Assembly: GCA_040902655.1 (NCBI GenBank)
Contig: JBBDWV010000015.1
Location: forward strand, 1 to 37,978
Length of the DNA stretch: 37,978 nucleotides
Source of the DNA: Mycobacteriales bacterium
GTDB taxonomy: Bacteria > Actinomycetota > Actinomycetes > Mycobacteriales > SCTD01
Direction of reading: 5' to 3'
Shown here: in pieces, positions 27,550 to 34,697 of the stretch
How the letters are laid out: each line of letters begins with the position of its first letter
How positions within the stretch are numbered: position 1 is the first letter of the stretch
The notes under the pieces: generated by a model
What the model was told of the DNA's origin: nothing
Seen by the model: only the letters and a program-made list of their open reading frames with translations
Database searches by the model: none
Program-made: the position numbers and the translations under genes

Positions 27550-28926
27550 ATGTCACTCCAGAACTCCGCCGGCGGCTTCACTGCGCTCGGCGTCCCGGCC
27601 GGCCTCGTCGCGGCACTCGCCGCACAGGGCATCGACGCGCCGTTCCCGATCCAGACCGCTACGCTGCCGGACAGCCTGGCCGGCCGCGACGTGCTCGGCC
27701 GGGGCCGTACGGGTAGCGGGAAGACGCTGGCCTTCAGCCTTCCGCTCGTCACCCGGCTGATCGGCGGCCGCCGCAGCCCCAGGCAGCCGCGCGCCCTCGT
27801 GCTCGTCCCGACCCGTGAGCTGGCCAACCAGGTGCTCGCCGTCGTGGCACCGCTCGCGCAGGCCGCCGGCCTCACCTCGACGGTCGTGTTCGGCGGCGTC
27901 GGGCAGAACCCGCAGGTGAAGGCGCTGGCCCCTGGCGTCGACGTCCTCATCGCCTGCCCGGGACGGCTGGAGGATCTCATCGGCCAAGGCTTCTGCGACC
28001 TGTCCGGCGTGGAGATCACCGTGCTCGACGAGGCGGACCACATGGCCGACCTGGGCTTCCTGCCTGTGGTCAGGCGGCTGCTCGACCGCACCCCCGCCCG
28101 CGGCCAGCGGATGCTGTTCTCCGCCACTCTCGACAACGGAGTCGATGTGGTGGTCAAGCGCTACCTGTCCTCGCCGGTCACGCATTCGGTCGATCCGGCC
28201 GTCGCCCCAGTGTCGACGATGACGCACCACGTCTTCAGCGTCAGCGCGGCGGACAAGCCGGCCGTCGTCCGGGAGCTGGCCGCCGGAACCGGCCGCAGTC
28301 TGCTGTTCTTGCGCACCAAGCACACCGCGAAGAAGCTGGCCAAGCAGCTGACCGCCGCCGGGATCCCCGCCGTCGAGCTGCACGGCAACCTCAGCCAGGG
28401 GGCCCGCGAGCGCAACCTGTCGGCCTTCACCGAGGGCAGCACCCGGGTCCTGGTCGCGACCGACATCGCCGCCCGCGGCATCCACGTCGACGACGTGGCA
28501 CTGGTGGTCCACGTCGACCCGCCGACCGAGCACAAGGCCTACCTGCACCGGTCCGGCCGTACCGCCCGCGCGGGCGCCGGCGGCACCGTCGTCACGCTCG
28601 CGCTGCCCGAGCAGGCGGGGGAGGTGCGTGCGCTGGCGAAGCAGGCCGGCATCCGGCCGGCCACGGTCGCCGTCCGTCCCGGTTCGGACCGGATCGCCGA
28701 GCTGGCCGGGCCTGCGGCGCCGTACGTCGAGCCGGCGCCGGTGGTCGAGGAGCCGGTACGGGCCCGAGTAGCCCGTGGTCAGCGGCAGGGTCAGGGCTCG
28801 GCACCGATCAAGCAGGGCGGCTCGGCGTCGCGGAAGATGTCCGGCCGCAGTGCCGGTCCGGCACGCACCCGCGCGGAACTCGCTGCACGGGCCGGTCAGC
28901 CGACGCCGGCCCGCCGTTCCCGCTGA
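27550..28926 (+). CDS. DEAD-box ATP-dependent RNA helicase
   Basis: RNA helicase of 458 residues that remodels RNA secondary structure, probably in ribosome assembly or mRNA turnover. Motifs are in order: FPIQTATLPDSLAGRD (Q motif), GRTGSGKT (52-59), PTRELANQV, ACPGRLEDLI, DEAD (near 160), SATL, FLRTKHTAKKLAKQL, ATDIAARGIHVDDV and HRSGRTARAG. The C-terminal 90 residues are basic and Gln/Gly/Ser-rich, as in many actinobacterial DEAD-box proteins. The ATG at 27550 has AAGGA just upstream; earlier in-frame codons give Arg-rich shadow sequence. The 3' end lies over the C-terminal codons of the convergent pterin dehydratase gene. Confidence 0.93.
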   Translation: MSLQNSAGGFTALGVPAGLVAALAAQGIDAPFPIQTATLPDSLAGRDVLGRGRTGSGKTLAFSLPLVTRLIGGRRSPRQPRALVLVPTRELANQVLAVVAPLAQAAGLTSTVVFGGVGQNPQVKALAPGVDVLIACPGRLEDLIGQGFCDLSGVEITVLDEADHMADLGFLPVVRRLLDRTPARGQRMLFSATLDNGVDVVVKRYLSSPVTHSVDPAVAPVSTMTHHVFSVSAADKPAVVRELAAGTGRSLLFLRTKHTAKKLAKQLTAAGIPAVELHGNLSQGARERNLSAFTEGSTRVLVATDIAARGIHVDDVALVVHVDPPTEHKAYLHRSGRTARAGAGGTVVTLALPEQAGEVRALAKQAGIRPATVAVRPGSDRIAELAGPAAPYVEPAPVVEEPVRARVARGQRQGQGSAPIKQGGSASRKMSGRSAGPARTRAELAARAGQPTPARRSR

Positions 28927-29257
28927 GGGTCGTCCCGGAGGCGGCGCCGGCAAGGCCGAGCTCCTCGGTGATGAGGTCCAGCCTGCGCGCCAACTCCACG
29001 TCCGCCAGCGTGACCGCGTCGCGCACGTGCGTCCACAGCAGAAAGGTCACCGTGCCGGCGTCCAGCGTGACCTCGGTGTGGTGGTCGAGCTCGCCCTCGA
29101 CGGCGCAGACCTGCTCCAGCAGCGCCCACAGATCGTGGGGCACGACCGTCCGGATCAGCCGGGTCCCGTCGCAGCGCCAGCCGGGCAGTTCGCCCAGTGC
29201 GGCCGCGAGGGCCTCCACGTCCAGCGGGGCGTAGCGCTGCACCCTGTCCAGGATCAT
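28808..29257 (-). CDS. 4a-hydroxytetrahydrobiopterin dehydratase (pterin-4a-carbinolamine dehydratase)
   Basis: Small enzyme recycling the pterin cofactor of aromatic amino acid hydroxylases. The first 100 residues fit the family: LGELPGWRCDGTRLIRTVVPHD, then the catalytic EGELDHHTEVTLDAGTV (His59, His60) and LWTHVRDAVTLADVELARRLD (His77). The ATG at 29257 gives the usual start. The frame runs to 149 residues, about 45 beyond the domain, and this tail is encoded antisense to the helicase end (overlap 28808-28926). It has no family resemblance and may simply reflect loss of an earlier stop. No hydroxylase gene is nearby, so the partner pathway is unknown. Confidence 0.85.
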   Translation of the reverse strand: MILDRVQRYAPLDVEALAAALGELPGWRCDGTRLIRTVVPHDLWALLEQVCAVEGELDHHTEVTLDAGTVTFLLWTHVRDAVTLADVELARRLDLITEELGLAGAASGTTLSGNGGPASADRPVQRVPRGCVPDRHCGRTSSATPSRPA

Positions 29258-29351: not shown

Positions 29352-29708
29352 TCAGCCGCCCTTCGTGCCCTCGCGCACCTGCGCGACGGCGGCGGGGAGG
29401 TCGTCGCTCGCGAGCGCACCGGCCAGTCCGACCACCTCCAGGACCCGCCGCGCGCGCGAGCCCGGTGGTGCCACCACGCGGAAGTACCCGCCGGACTGCG
29501 CGCACTCGCGGGCCAGCCGGTCCACGAGGCGGACCCCCGCGCTGTCGAGGAAGGTCGCCGCCGAGAGGTCCAGCACCAGCGGTCCACCGCCGGTCAGTGC
29601 GGCCGGGTCCCCGAGCAGGGCGCGCGTCGTGACGACGTCCAGCTCTCCGTGGGCACGCAGCACCCGTACTCCGTGGAGGTCCTCGCCCGACACCTCCTCG
29701 AGGGTCAT
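29352..29708 (-). CDS. STAS-domain anti-sigma factor antagonist
   Basis: RsbV/SpoIIAA-like protein of 118 residues. When unphosphorylated, such proteins bind the anti-sigma kinase and free the sigma factor. The STAS core is complete: VRVLRAHGELDVVTTRAL, PLVLDLSAATFLDSAGVRLV with the phosphorylatable Ser56, and a C-terminal helix region GLAGALASDDLPAAVAQV. The ATG at 29708 overlaps the stop of the phosphatase gene (ATGA), so antagonist and its presumed phosphatase/kinase are made together. It is the last gene of the RsbQ-like hydrolase, phosphatase and antagonist operon. Confidence 0.9.
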   Translation of the reverse strand: MTLEEVSGEDLHGVRVLRAHGELDVVTTRALLGDPAALTGGGPLVLDLSAATFLDSAGVRLVDRLARECAQSGGYFRVVAPPGSRARRVLEVVGLAGALASDDLPAAVAQVREGTKGG

Positions 29709-31597
29709 GACGGCTCCCGGGGCAGAGTTCGTCGCAGGACCACCGTGGTGCCGTCCCCCTCCTGCACGGCGACGTCGACGAGCGCTCGCATGATCATGAG
29801 GCCGCGACCGCGCTCGTGCGAGGCCGGACCGGTGCGCCACCGGCCGCGATCGCGCACCGTTACCACCACCTGGTCCTGGTGGTCCGGCCGCTGTTCGAGC
29901 TCGGCACTGAGCGCGACCGACTCCTCGGAGCGCCGGCCGCTGCCGTGTTCGGCGGCGTTGGCCATGGCTTCCGATGCCGCCAGGACCAGGTCGTCGGCGG
30001 TCTGGCCGTCGAGGCCGCGTTCGGCCAGCCACGCTGCCAGCTCCTGACGGATGGCCGACAGGCCGGTCAGGTCCGCCGGCAGGGTCCGGTGGAAGGGCCG
30101 GCCCGCCCAGGACAGCATCAGCACGCAGACGTCGTCGCGTACCCGCTCGTCGAGCAGCAGGGTCTGCGTGAGCCGGGCCACCGCCTCGGCCAGCGGGACG
30201 CTGTGCAGCTCGGCAGTGACCCGTTCGAGCACGGCAAGCCCGTCGTCCAGGTCCCGGTCCCGCCGCTCGAACAGACCGTCGGTGTAGAGCAGGACCCGGT
30301 CGCCGGGCGTGAGCTGCACCGTCGCCTCCGCCCGGTGCTGGGCGGGGGCGAATGCGCCGAGCGGTGTCGAGCGGCCTTCCCACAGCAGCCGTGGCCGTCC
30401 GGCTACGGGCAGCAGCAACGGCGGGGGGTGCCCGGCGCAGGCGTAACGCAGCCGACCCTCGTCCAGGTCGAGCTCGGCGTACGCCACGGTGGCCATGGCG
30501 GCAGCCTCGACCTGATCGACGAACCGGTCCAGCCGCGACAGCAGGCGGGCCGGCCCCACCTCGGAGGCGGCGACGGCCCGGACGGCGCTGCGGAGCTGCC
30601 CCATGGTGCTGGCGGCGTGCAGCCCGCGGCCGACGACGTCGCCCACCACCACCGAGAGCACGTCCGGCTCGGCTGCGAACACGTCGTACCAGTCGCCGCC
30701 GACCTCGAGCATCTCCACCCCGGGCCGGTACGCGGTGGCGACGGCGAACCGGCCGTCGCGCGGCGGCTCCACCGCGAGCAGGGAGTGCTGGAGCTCGTGC
30801 GCCACCATGGCGCTCTGCTCGTACAGCTGCGCCCGGTCCAGGGCCAGGCCGGCCTGCTGCCCGACGGTCGTGAGCATCTCGAGGTCCGGCGACTCGGCGG
30901 CGGCGGTGTCCGGCGGGAGCAGCGAGAGCACTCCCTGCAGCACCGAGTGTCCGCGCAGCGGCACGACCGCGCGCCCGCCGTCGGTGACGACCGCCGTCCG
31001 CTGGAGCAGCGCCGGCGCGGGCAGCTCACAGGCGCCGGCGGGCTCTCCCCGCGAGCTGTGCCGGATGAGCCCGGTCTCACGATCGGACAGCCACAGGGTG
31101 CCGGCGGCGGCGCCGAGAGGGGCGACCGCCGCGGCCAGCAGTGCCTGTGCGACACCCTCGACCCCCAGGGCTTGCGAGAGCGCCGCCGTCACCTCCTGCA
31201 GCGCGCGCAGTTGGGTGGCCGAGCGGTCCGCAGCCGCCCGCGCCGACAGCAGCTCCCGTTCGTAACGCGAGCGCTCCCGCGCGCTGGACAGGGCGACGTG
31301 CACCCCGTCGCCGGACCGCACCGCAGTGAGCAGCACGGGCAGCCGCCCGCCGGCCGCCCTCAGCTCGACCGCGACCTCGTCCACCCGGCCGTCGACGTGC
31401 AGCAGGGGGGACAGGTGCGTCTCCCAGTAGATCCGACCGCCGACCGAGAGCAGCTCGCTGAGCTGACATCCCAGCACGTCCCGCTCGGTGCGGCCCAGCC
31501 ACTCGAGGACGGTCCCGTTCGCCTCGCCGACGGTGCCGTCCGGGCGCAGCGTGAGAAGGCCGCAGGGAGCATCCTCCCAACGGGCCGGTGGCGTCAC
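29705..31597 (-). CDS. PAS-GAF-SpoIIE phosphatase with C-terminal HATPase kinase domain
   Basis: Sensor enzyme of 630 residues in a partner-switching pathway. Residues 1-105 are a PAS domain (ANGTVLEWLGRTERDVLG, GRIYWETHLSPLLH). Residues about 135-280 are a GAF-like domain. Residues about 295-490 are a PP2C/SpoIIE phosphatase with metal-binding Asp in EVGGDWYDVF, VGDVVGRGLH, YTDGLFERRD and RDDVCVLML. Residues about 500-630 are an RsbW-like HATPase (DLVLAASEAMANAAEHG N-box, VRDRGRWR, ERGRGLMIM). Phosphatase and kinase for the STAS protein are thus joined in one chain. The GTG at 31597 overlaps the RsbQ-like gene stop (GTGA); the longer frame to 31756 runs through that gene. In Bacillus, RsbP has PAS and PP2C only. 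Confidence 0.92.
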   Translation of the reverse strand: MTPPARWEDAPCGLLTLRPDGTVGEANGTVLEWLGRTERDVLGCQLSELLSVGGRIYWETHLSPLLHVDGRVDEVAVELRAAGGRLPVLLTAVRSGDGVHVALSSARERSRYERELLSARAAADRSATQLRALQEVTAALSQALGVEGVAQALLAAAVAPLGAAAGTLWLSDRETGLIRHSSRGEPAGACELPAPALLQRTAVVTDGGRAVVPLRGHSVLQGVLSLLPPDTAAAESPDLEMLTTVGQQAGLALDRAQLYEQSAMVAHELQHSLLAVEPPRDGRFAVATAYRPGVEMLEVGGDWYDVFAAEPDVLSVVVGDVVGRGLHAASTMGQLRSAVRAVAASEVGPARLLSRLDRFVDQVEAAAMATVAYAELDLDEGRLRYACAGHPPPLLLPVAGRPRLLWEGRSTPLGAFAPAQHRAEATVQLTPGDRVLLYTDGLFERRDRDLDDGLAVLERVTAELHSVPLAEAVARLTQTLLLDERVRDDVCVLMLSWAGRPFHRTLPADLTGLSAIRQELAAWLAERGLDGQTADDLVLAASEAMANAAEHGSGRRSEESVALSAELEQRPDHQDQVVVTVRDRGRWRTGPASHERGRGLMIMRALVDVAVQEGDGTTVVLRRTLPREPS

Positions 31598-32403
31598 GCC
31601 GCTAGCAGATAGCGCTGCATCGCGGTGACGAGCGCGTCCGGCGCGCTCAGGTTGGGACAGTGGCCGGTGGCATCGAGCACCACCAGCTCGCTGCCCGCGA
31701 GGTGCTCGTGCACGTAGCGGCCGACCTCCGGAGGGGCGATGACGTCCTCTCGGCACTGCACGACCAAGGCGGGGGTACGGACCCGGGCCAGGTCGGCGCG
31801 GTTGTCCGACAGGAACGTCGTGCGGGCGAACCGTCGGGCGATCGTCGGGTCGGTCCGGCAGAAGCTGCTGGTCAGCTCCTGGCCGAGCTCCGGCCGCGCC
31901 GGGACACCCATGATGACGGGGGCGATGTGGGTCGACCAGCCGAGGTAGTTGTCGTCCATCGTCTCGAGCAGTTCATCGATCTCCTCCTGCCGGAAACCGC
32001 CGCGGTAGTTCTCGTCGTCGATGTAGCGCGGGCTGGGGCAGACCAGCACCAGCCGGTCGAACAGCTCCGGCCGCTCCGCCGCCGCCAGCACCGCGATGAC
32101 GGCGCTGACGGAGTGCCCGACCAGGACGACGGGCGGTAGGTCCAGCCCGGTGAGGACGTCGAGGACGTCACTCGCGTAACCCTCCAGCCCGCTGTGACGC
32201 ACCGGGTCGTACGCGGACAGGTCGGAACCGCCGGCGCCGACGTGGTCGAACAGCACGACGCGGTGGGTCTGCTCGAAGGCGGGAGCGATGTAGCGCCACA
32301 TGCCCTGGTCGCAGCCGAAGCCATGGGCCAGAACCATCGGCGGACCGCTGTCCAGACCACTCACCGTCACGTTGTTCCTTGCCAGCACGTCCACGGCGGT
32401 CAC
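31594..32403 (-). CDS. rsbQ: RsbQ-like alpha/beta hydrolase
   Basis: Close homologue of Bacillus RsbQ, the hydrolase that activates the RsbP phosphatase in energy stress, and of the plant receptors KAI2 and D14. The 269-residue protein contains NNVTVSG, VLAHGFGCDQGMWRYIAPAFE, HRVVLFDHVGAGGSDLSAYD, the nucleophile Ser98 in LVGHSVSAV, FCRTDPTIARRFARTTFLSD, Asp220 in CREDVIAP and His248 in ATGHCPNLSAP, so the catalytic triad is intact. The GTG at 32403 is used; GTG at 32394 with GGTGA upstream is also possible. Its stop overlaps the PAS-containing phosphatase gene, the same pairing as rsbQ-rsbP, strongly suggesting that the hydrolase product or ligand is sensed by the PAS domain. Confidence 0.92.
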   Translation of the reverse strand: MTAVDVLARNNVTVSGLDSGPPMVLAHGFGCDQGMWRYIAPAFEQTHRVVLFDHVGAGGSDLSAYDPVRHSGLEGYASDVLDVLTGLDLPPVVLVGHSVSAVIAVLAAAERPELFDRLVLVCPSPRYIDDENYRGGFRQEEIDELLETMDDNYLGWSTHIAPVIMGVPARPELGQELTSSFCRTDPTIARRFARTTFLSDNRADLARVRTPALVVQCREDVIAPPEVGRYVHEHLAGSELVVLDATGHCPNLSAPDALVTAMQRYLLAA

Positions 32404-32459: not shown

Positions 32460-32885
32460 CTACCCGCCGACCTGTGGTGGAGCCACGTCGGCGTCGGGTC
32501 TGGTGTCGACCGCGGCCCCGACCTCGAACCAGACCGTCTTGCCGGCCCCCGTCGGCTCGGCGCCCCAGGACGAGGCCAGCGCATCGACCAGGGCCAGGCC
32601 ACGGCCGCCCTCGTCCAGAAGTGCGGCGTCCCGAGGATGGGGCAGGGTCGCGCTGCCGTCGATCACCTCGATGCGGACACCCTTCGACTGCGGGACGACC
32701 CGGACCCGGACCTGGCCCACGCCGTGGATCAGCGCGTTGGTCGCCACCTCGCTGACCAGCAGCGACACGGTGTCGCAGTCCGCGTCGGGCGCGCTGAGGC
32801 GACAGGCGTCGGTGGCGAAGCGGCGGATCCGGGCCACACTCGCCGGCACCGTCTCCACCACCATCTCCAGGGGTGGCGAGGTCAC
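32460..32885 (-). CDS. RsbW-like ATP-binding anti-sigma regulatory protein
   Basis: HATPase-domain protein of 141 residues, the size of anti-sigma kinases. ATP-binding boxes are present: VSLLVSEVATNALIHG (N-box with Glu and Asn), EVIDGSATLP (G1 region, where the usual Asp-x-Gly reads Asp-Gly-Ser), and DEGGRGLALVDALASSWG (G2). It lies 56 bases upstream of the RsbQ-like gene on the same strand and may be co-transcribed. The GTG at 32885 is the preferred start because the domain begins about ten residues later, but no strong ribosome-binding site is seen and starts further upstream are possible. No sigma factor gene is in the window, so its target is unknown. Confidence 0.82.
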   Translation of the reverse strand: MTSPPLEMVVETVPASVARIRRFATDACRLSAPDADCDTVSLLVSEVATNALIHGVGQVRVRVVPQSKGVRIEVIDGSATLPHPRDAALLDEGGRGLALVDALASSWGAEPTGAGKTVWFEVGAAVDTRPDADVAPPQVGG

Positions 32886-33014: not shown

Positions 33015-34510
33015 GTGAGCGAGCAGGAGTCGACCGGCGTCGTCTTCCCCTTCGCGGAGGACGGCCGGCGCAGTACGACGACGACGGGCAAGGCGGTCTG
33101 GGCAGATGCCGTGCGGGATGCCGATGCCGCGCTCGCGGGCCGCATCGACGCCGAACGTGTCTGGCGCGCCGGTTACGTTCCGCGGGTCGCGGAGCTGACC
33201 GCAGTCGCCACCCGCAGCCCGGACGTCGCCACGGCGGTGGCCCGGGGCGGTCTGTCGTCGCTCGCGGCGCGGATGCGCTTCGAGCGGGACGGCACCAGCA
33301 CGTCCGTACCGGAGGCCGTGGCCGCCGGCCCGGTCGGTGGGTTCGGCACGCACCGCACCTCGGGCCAGGGTGAACGCGAGGTCGACCTCGTCGTGCCGTA
33401 CCGGGGTGAGCACCTGCGCGGCGACACCCTGCTGCGGCAGCTGGACGCGTGGGCGGAGTCGGGCACGGTCGAGCCGTCCTTCGCGGAGGCGTTGCGGCAG
33501 GTCGTCTCGCACCCGGCCGAGCTGGACCTGCGCGACCGTGGCTTCGCGGTGCTCGGTGCCGGTGCCGAACTCGGGCCGGTCGAGCCGCTGCTGCGCTGGG
33601 GTGCGACCGTCGCCGCGGTCGACCTGCCGGTGCGTGCCGTCCAGGATCGGCTGCTCACCGCCGCCCGCGGATCCGCCGGGACGCTCGAGCTCCCGCTGCC
33701 TGCGGGCGGCTCGCCGGACGGCGACGTCGCGGCCGAGGCGGGCGCGGACCTGCTCGCGCAGACACCCGAGGTGGCGCACTGGCTGGCCGGCGCGGCCGGC
33801 GATCTGCCGGTCACCGTCGGCAGCTACGCCTATGCCGACGGGGCGCGGCACGTGCAGGTGGCCGTCGCCAGCGACGCCGTGGTGCAGCACCTGCTCGGCA
33901 CCCGGCCGGGCACCTCGTACGCCGAACTCGCCACCCCCACCGACGCCTACGTCGTCCCGATGGAGGTGGTCGAGCAGGCCAGGGCGGGCTGGCGTCGCCG
34001 TGGCTGGCGCCGTCCGCTGCAGGCCGCGGCGCGGCTGGTCAGCCGCGGCGACCTCTACCAGCCCGGCTACCCCTCGACGCTCCGGCGCGAGGATGGCACC
34101 GAGGTGGCTGTCGCGGACGTGCTCGTACCGCAGCAGGGGCCGAACTACACCCTTGCCAAGCGGCTGCAGCGCTGGCGGGCCACGGTCGCACAGGCCGACG
34201 GTCTGACGGTCTCCGCCAACGTGGCACCGGCCACGCACACCCGGTCGGTGACCAGGAACCGCCTGCTGGCAGCGGCGTACGCGGGGGCGCACAGCTTCGG
34301 TGTGGAGGTGTTCGCGCCGACGACCAGCCGGGTGCTATGGCGGCGCTGCTCGTGCACGACCTGCGTACCGGGCCGGTCGAGCTCGGGCACCCGGACGACC
34401 TGTTCGTCCGGCAGGCGGCCCACGGTGGGCTGTGGCGGACCCCGTACTCACCACGGTCGGTCCTCGGCCTGGCCGCCGTGCGGGGGCTCCCGGGTACGGT
34501 GCGCCGTTGA
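33015..34510 (+). pseudogene. Uncharacterised protein gene interrupted by a frameshift near 34333
   Basis: Coding character is strong from GTG 33015 (GGAGGT at 33005-33010) in one frame up to about 34330 (ending SFGVEVFAPTTSRV), then switches to the next frame (MAALLVHDLRTGPVELGHPD ... GLPGTVRR, stop at 34508-34510). Removing the shift requires one extra base near 34331-34336, so a single-base deletion or a sequencing error is likely. Restored, the product is about 498 residues. A stretch VLGAGAELGPVEPLLRWGA (about residue 180) resembles a nucleotide-binding strand-loop-helix, but I do not recognise the family. Unrepaired, the first frame stays open through the next gene to 35867, which could mislead gene callers into a fusion. 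Confidence 0.7.
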
Positions 34511-34571: not shown

Positions 34572-34622
34572 GATCTCGGTGCCACGCCTGTGCCCGGAGC
34601 GGGCGCTGCCGGCACCGAGAAC
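34572..34622. repeat. 51-bp stem-loop repeat, copy 1
   Basis: Identical over 51 bases to 34647-34697. Outer arms TCTCGGTGCC (34574-34583) and GGCACCGAGA (34611-34620) are perfectly complementary over ten pairs. Inside the loop, GCCCG (34592-34596) and CGGGC (34600-34604) form a second hairpin with a GAG loop. No T-run follows, so it is not a classical terminator. It resembles a REP-like palindromic unit. Confidence 0.85.
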
Positions 34623-34646
34623 GCTGGACACCGGGCCGGGCGAGCT

Positions 34647-34697
34647 GATCTCGGTGCCACGCCTGTGCCCGGAGCGGGCGCTGCCGGCACCGAGAAC
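34647..34697. repeat. 51-bp stem-loop repeat, copy 2
   Basis: Second exact copy, 75 bases after the first with a 24-base unique spacer. The nested hairpin is identical: outer arms 34649-34658 and 34686-34695. Perfect identity indicates a recent duplication or gene-conversion-like upkeep. Confidence 0.85.

Follow-up and report, generated by a model that had tools for sequence, protein, structure and literature searches.

The RsbQ-PAS module, a bacterial stress-sensing pair in which an alpha/beta hydrolase acts together with a PAS domain, was published in 2011 by Nadezhdin et al. for the RsbQ-RsbP pair of Bacillus subtilis and for homologous pairs, with a set of 45 PAS proteins that includes Streptomyces representatives (PMC3183031). 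According to the sections of that paper drawn on here, PAS domains linked to RsbQ carry nine typical residues, their outputs fall into three classes (phosphatase, histidine kinase and diguanylate cyclase), and what the module senses was called mysterious at the time. A second system, Rv1364c of Mycobacterium tuberculosis (PAS-PP2C-kinase-STAS), is described in the relevant parts of two papers as phosphorylating and dephosphorylating its own STAS domain (PMC9138534, PMC7693655); both also cite a 2008 article with a title on loss of kinase activity. Here, we analysed 37,978 nucleotides (nt) of contig JBBDWV010000015.1 from a Mycobacteriales bacterium, hereafter the window, in which three genes on the reverse strand encode an RsbQ-type hydrolase, a PAS-GAF-PP2C-HATPase fusion and a STAS protein (Table 1). 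Gene order, overlaps, homology, active-site residues and conservation, as observed in this work, indicate that these genes probably form a sensory module of the RsbQ-PAS type that feeds into a combined phosphatase-kinase with a STAS substrate of its own.

The window shares with the published module an RsbQ-type gene placed directly before that of a protein with an RsbP-type PAS as its first domain, a phosphatase output, the diagnostic classes of PAS residues and, as judged by eye, the absence of a DIT motif at the end of the PAS domain. It differs from the module, as set out in those sections, by an added GAF-like unit, a C-terminal RsbW-like HATPase and a STAS gene that comes next; the words HATPase, STAS and GAF are absent from the main text of PMC3183031 (figures excluded). 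With Rv1364c, it has in common a PP2C and an RsbW-like kinase domain in one chain and in the same order, whereas STAS, which is part of that same chain in Rv1364c as far as the cited parts describe it, is encoded in the window by a separate gene (29352-29708), and the fusion of the window adds the GAF-like unit and is paired with an RsbQ-type hydrolase. Other actinobacterial loci with a PP2C-HATPase chain and STAS (e.g. L156-L161) also have a STAS frame ending just after the chain on the same strand, but their chains carry no RsbP-type PAS, and the stretches examined contain no RsbQ-type hydrolase. Because the RsbQ-PAS module (2011) and the phosphatase-kinase chain of Rv1364c were already known, we see no new mechanism but two known modules joined. 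The parts described in an earlier note, made from the sequence of the window, are not supported as new, the RsbQ-PAS pair with phosphatase output and the single chain both being on record in the parts cited (PMC3183031; PMC9138534, PMC7693655). What appears to be new is the combination, namely the union of an RsbQ-PAS input with an Rv1364c-like phosphatase-kinase and with STAS as a separate gene; a narrow search of the open-licence PMC literature found no paper combining RsbQ and HATPase.

The three genes at 29352-32403 overlap by four bases each, as the earlier note had stated and as the sequence confirms: the TGA stop of the hydrolase gene and the GTG start of the fusion gene share GTGA (31597-31594), and the TGA stop of the latter and the ATG start of the STAS gene share ATGA (29708-29705). 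Gene order was then compared among relatives. A hydrolase match was found at E ≤ 1e-45 in 75 of the 393 genomes of the class searched and at E ≤ 1e-30 in 5 of the 24 genomes of the family (own genome included in both cases), and the 81 loci retained comprise the window, four family loci and 76 of 77 other places in the class, a partial match (G134) being left out. Domains were assigned with profiles obtained by iterative searching that started from the domains of the window. In 78 of these 81 actinobacterial loci, a frame with an RsbP-type PAS or a PP2C domain follows the hydrolase on the same strand, and this adjacency is beyond chance. The overlap is exactly 4 nt in 62 of the 78, a figure that leans to small overlaps because the start codon closest to the expected position was chosen. 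Partners were labelled PAS-PP2C (55), PAS-GAF-PP2C-HATPase (6), PAS-GAF-PP2C (6), PAS-GAF-GAF-PP2C (2), PAS only (5), PAS-GAF (2), PAS-GAF-GAF (1) and PP2C only (1), some short ones ending at contig ends (L040 among these). Of the 78 partners, 27 are followed by a called STAS gene, in 22 cases with a 4-nt overlap; 25 of the calls carry DSxG and the other two (L081, L115) look spurious. For the six fused members, STAS is next in every case, each time with a 4-nt overlap and with DSAG or DSSG, the contig of L045 ending inside STAS. The three-gene order described in the earlier note is therefore conserved in relatives, with five other fused loci (L041-L045) and one in Symbioplanes lichenis (L151).

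The Symbioplanes locus is one of 80 loci kept from the matches listed when named genomes were scanned using the alignment of the fusion; these loci were then searched for the hydrolase. It encodes the hydrolase, a PAS-GAFs-PP2C-HATPase chain, with GAF and PAS over the Pfam cut-off, and a STAS protein with DSAG. Georgenia ruanii (L148), Promicromonospora citrea (L150) and Blastococcus (L208) have the hydrolase followed by PAS-GAF-PP2C without HATPase, a metagenome-assembled genome (L149) has PAS-GAF-PP2C-HATPase and STAS on a contig that begins inside the fusion gene, leaving no upstream DNA to judge the hydrolase, and in L192 the hydrolase lies beside another PAS-PP2C gene on the opposite strand. 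Among the matches listed, 16 PP2C-HATPase loci lack an RsbP-type PAS in the same chain (L152-L162, L189, L191, L199, L203, L206). The one hydrolase match found with them, of 58 bits, is on the opposite strand of L157; little or no upstream DNA is available for L158 and L206. Thus, the hydrolase goes with PAS while PP2C-HATPase-STAS exists alone, and the window joins two modules. A hydrolase tree of 74 rows (7 fused, 26 with STAS; L081, where a stop splits the hydrolase, was dropped from the tree and from the distance test below) requires three changes for the kinase fusion. The fused rows near the window fall in a 10-row group (100/99) together with unfused Georgenia L148, Promicromonospora L150, L053 and truncated L040; Symbioplanes lies outside it, in a region with unresolved branching. 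The presence of STAS after the partner needs 10 changes over the same rows and is thus labile outside the fused loci.

The hydrolase matches Pfam Abhydrolase_6 (E 2.1e-23), and its closest chain in the PDB is RsbQ (1wom; E 1.2e-89, 304 bits by phmmer), with 135 of 260 aligned residues identical. In the alignment, its Ser98, Asp220 and His248 fall on the triad residues of RsbQ, presumably S96, D219 and H247, in agreement with the intact triad reported in the earlier note, and over the 81 loci Ser and Asp are found in all and His in 80, with one gap. The next solved relatives are Olei00960 and then, from E 1.8e-61, plant KAI2/D14-type proteins. The karrikin and strigolactone receptors KAI2/D14 share the hydrolase family, yet the window hydrolase is clearly nearer RsbQ, and this order of scores rules out its membership of the receptors; their plant F-box signalling partners are a different matter. 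The KAI2/D14-like ligand suggested in the earlier note is hypothetical. The best NCBIfam matches include PcaDC, PcaD and BioH models, as might be expected of an ordinary metabolic enzyme (e.g. an enol-lactonase) co-transcribed by chance, but their scores of 103, 92 and 84 bits fall far short of the respective cut-offs (390, 256 and 207; the 304 bits for RsbQ by phmmer being on a different scale), and a metabolic identity was rejected on these scores. The partner gene adjoining the hydrolase in 78 of 81 loci and the lack of hydrolase in the 16 loci without an RsbP-type PAS in the chain (the 58-bit match of L157 excepted, and with little or no upstream DNA in L158 and L206) also make such a chance association very improbable. 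In a separate plasmid search, 74 records contained a hydrolase relative, including ones from Streptomyces, rhizobia, Deinococcus and Hymenobacter; in one record (H32) the match and a feature annotated as PAS sensor histidine kinase overlap.

The RsbP-type character of the PAS domain is supported by its residues. Nine of those in Table 1 (all except P64) fit the consensus classes given in the part of PMC3183031 used, as paired by inference, their positions having been derived from the numbering of that source with an almost constant shift (+2; +1 for the last residue) rather than via an alignment with RsbP. The conserved proline P64 is present as well. The number of partners (out of 78) that keep the residue is 65 for C, 67 for L15, 74 for R/K, 69 for Y/F/H, 70 for H61, 74 for P64 and 68 for P87; for E74 it is only 34, and 38 have G. 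A comparison of the window PAS with PDB sequences returned nothing useful (best E 1.1). For 69 loci, pairwise distances of the hydrolase correlated with those of PAS at r 0.84 and with those of PP2C at r 0.75, the partial correlations being 0.63 and 0.36. These correlations largely reflect shared ancestry, and only the difference between PAS and PP2C speaks, in a suggestive way, for a tie between hydrolase and PAS.

In the fusion, Pfam matches are clear for SpoIIE/PP2C (E 2.8e-45) and HATPase_c_2 (E 1.7e-21). The PAS_4 match (20.6 bits, cut-off 23.1; PAS matches within residues 7-96) and the GAF_2 match (25.8 bits, cut-off 28.6) are below threshold. Of the PAS-GAF-PP2C-HATPase chain proposed in the earlier note, PP2C and HATPase therefore stand clearly and an RsbP-type PAS is supported, while GAF is weak. 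An AlphaFold2 model from an alignment of six sequences (mean predicted local distance difference test score, pLDDT, 75.7; predicted template modelling score 0.51) has the order PAS, helix 108-142, GAF, helix 239-273, PP2C 284-497 and HATPase 502-624, where the alpha/beta units at 13-105 and 145-227 may be read as PAS and GAF; the two helices would lie between PAS and the output, where the RsbQ-PAS module has a coiled-coil linker. Foldseek with the whole model ranked Rv1364c first (E 4.5e-24), followed by PP2C structures, and its list also has B. subtilis RsbW and phytochromes, which are PAS-GAF proteins. Rv1364c is likewise the best sequence match of the fusion in the PDB (E 5.3e-43), spanning PP2C and HATPase. 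The PP2C motifs are kept in all six fused members.

The nearest solved kinase domains to the fused HATPase are those of Rv1364c (E 4.9e-11), RsbW (0.0065) and the anti-sigma F factor SpoIIAB (0.097). Its motifs SEA-ANA-EHG, D-G-W and ERGRGL, which we take to be the N-box, G1 and G2, are kept in six of six fused members. To judge from the sequence, these active-site residues permit kinase action without showing it. Another HATPase gene, on which the earlier note is silent, lies on the same strand 56 bp before the hydrolase gene, which could suggest that its product (32460-32885) is the real kinase of a four-gene system. In L041-L045, no such gene was found next to the hydrolase (with no more than about 0.8 kb of upstream DNA available in L045), matches to its profile in a few other loci (e.g. 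L057, L102) lie several kb off, and none of its PDB matches at E ≤ 1 is RsbW. A four-gene system is accordingly quite improbable, and the gene, not being kept across relatives, was dropped as a member of the module. It may be a local addition, since L041, of the same genus, is without it and has there a DUF4192-like gene (by eye).

The product of the third gene matches Pfam STAS over the cut-off (40.6 bits, E 2.3e-10) and is nearest, among solved chains, to RsfB, an anti-sigma-F factor antagonist (E 3e-7). Its Ser56 sits in LDSAG, which we assume to be the place of the RsbV/SpoIIAA phosphoserine; the phosphorylatable Ser predicted in the earlier note thus has a candidate. A SigB/F/G sigma factor is encoded on another contig of the genome (C52:190291, 316.6 bits); immediately upstream of it lies a weak HATPase match (C52:191331, 24 bits, below the cut-off).

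Several points weigh against the three genes being a phosphatase-kinase circuit with its own substrate. No sigma factor was seen at the three-gene locus, which leaves the self-contained switch of the earlier note a conjecture. Besides 5 STAS matches, the genome has 15 HATPase_c_2 matches over the cut-off; the window accounts for two of these, and one, on C22, adjoins a STAS gene. Given these HATPases, the STAS protein could serve another kinase. In the survey, the kinase-fused form is the rarer one (6 of 78 partners, window included; 72 without the fusion, some contig-cut), no STAS was called beside the partner in 51 of 78 loci (some also contig-cut), and no partner was detected in 3 of 81 (L108, whose hydrolase is 63% identical to that of the window, L118, 40%, and L119, 36%). 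A strict rule is also contradicted by L204, with PAS-PAS-GAF-PP2C and without hydrolase. To the weak GAF assignment is added low model confidence in the linker regions, parts of which have pLDDT <50. Finally, the kinase activity of Rv1364c itself, the nearest solved relative, is in dispute, judging from the parts of the literature cited, and the fused HATPase may bind without phosphorylating. It would then be an anti-sigma or STAS-binding domain without kinase use, another RsbW phosphorylating STAS and the fusion only dephosphorylating it. The other HATPases of the genome, the 72 partners without a fused kinase and the dispute over Rv1364c all favour this explanation; the retention, in the fused members, of Glu and Asn in the N-box, of Asp and Gly in G1 and of the G2 box counts against it, because STAS binding alone would not obviously need these residues, and we consider it rather unlikely.

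Table 1. Features of the three-gene locus and of the adjacent HATPase gene (window positions; aa, amino acids).
Feature	Position	Strand	Remarks
RsbQ-type alpha/beta hydrolase, 269 aa	31594..32403	-	Triad Ser98/Asp220/His248; GTG start at 32403, alternative GTG 32394
PAS-GAF-PP2C-HATPase fusion, 630 aa	29705..31597	-	GTG start
RsbP-type PAS domain, aa 7-105	31283..31579	-	Residues C12, L15, L50, R55, Y57, W58, H61, P64, E74, P87
First linker helix, aa 108-142	31172..31276	-	AlphaFold2 model, confidence <50 at 107-124
GAF-like unit, aa 145-227	30917..31165	-	Below Pfam cut-off; model
Second linker helix into PP2C, aa 239-273	30779..30883	-	AlphaFold2 model, confidence <50 from 262
PP2C/SpoIIE phosphatase domain, aa 284-497	30107..30748	-	Acidic motifs GGDWYD, VVGDVVGRGL, YTDGLFE, RDDVC
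HATPase_c_2 (RsbW-like) domain, aa 502-624	29726..30094	-	N-box SEAMANAAEHG, G1 DRGRW, G2 ERGRGL
STAS protein, RsbV-like, 118 aa	29352..29708	-	Ser56, codon 29543-29541; ATG start
Separate HATPase_c_2 protein, doubtful module member	32460..32885	-	56 bp upstream of hydrolase gene

After the STAS gene lies a pterin-4a-carbinolamine dehydratase-like gene (28865-29257, reverse strand; Pterin_4a 9.5e-13 on the slightly shorter 28865-29233), which follows STAS in L041 too; it was dropped as a member of the module, not being kept across relatives. On the other side, 33018-34502 (forward strand), part of a long open frame between the separate HATPase gene and DUF4192, had no Pfam match at E ≤ 0.01, and two identical 51-nt copies, 75 nt apart, occur at 34572-34697, with an inverted repeat across the first.

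If the three genes act as a phosphatase-kinase module, contact, activation, kinase and phosphatase action and target would be expected to follow B. subtilis RsbQP and Rv1364c. A small molecule in the hydrolase pocket, or its product, would alter the contact of the hydrolase with the Fα face of PAS, and the change in PAS would pass via the linker helices so that PP2C becomes dimerised and active; a linker model for such signalling is presented in the part of PMC12143880 drawn on here. Active PP2C would strip the phosphate from Ser56 of STAS, which the C-terminal HATPase would rephosphorylate when the signal is absent. Unphosphorylated STAS would bind an anti-sigma kinase, be it the HATPase of the fusion or a different RsbW of the same cell, and free a SigB/F-type sigma factor. 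More tentatively, and in our view rather doubtfully, a single ligand-reading hydrolase might set both activities, its binding to PAS activating the phosphatase while silencing the kinase, and the GAF-like unit might supply a second input. In that case, the phosphorylation level of STAS would be determined solely by the ligand, whatever the amounts of separate enzymes. Whichever applies, the arrangement would add one output type to the three distinguished in the sections of PMC3183031 cited, and as a three-gene cassette in strict order the circuit could be rebuilt in a test tube, where ligands could be screened by STAS phosphorylation.

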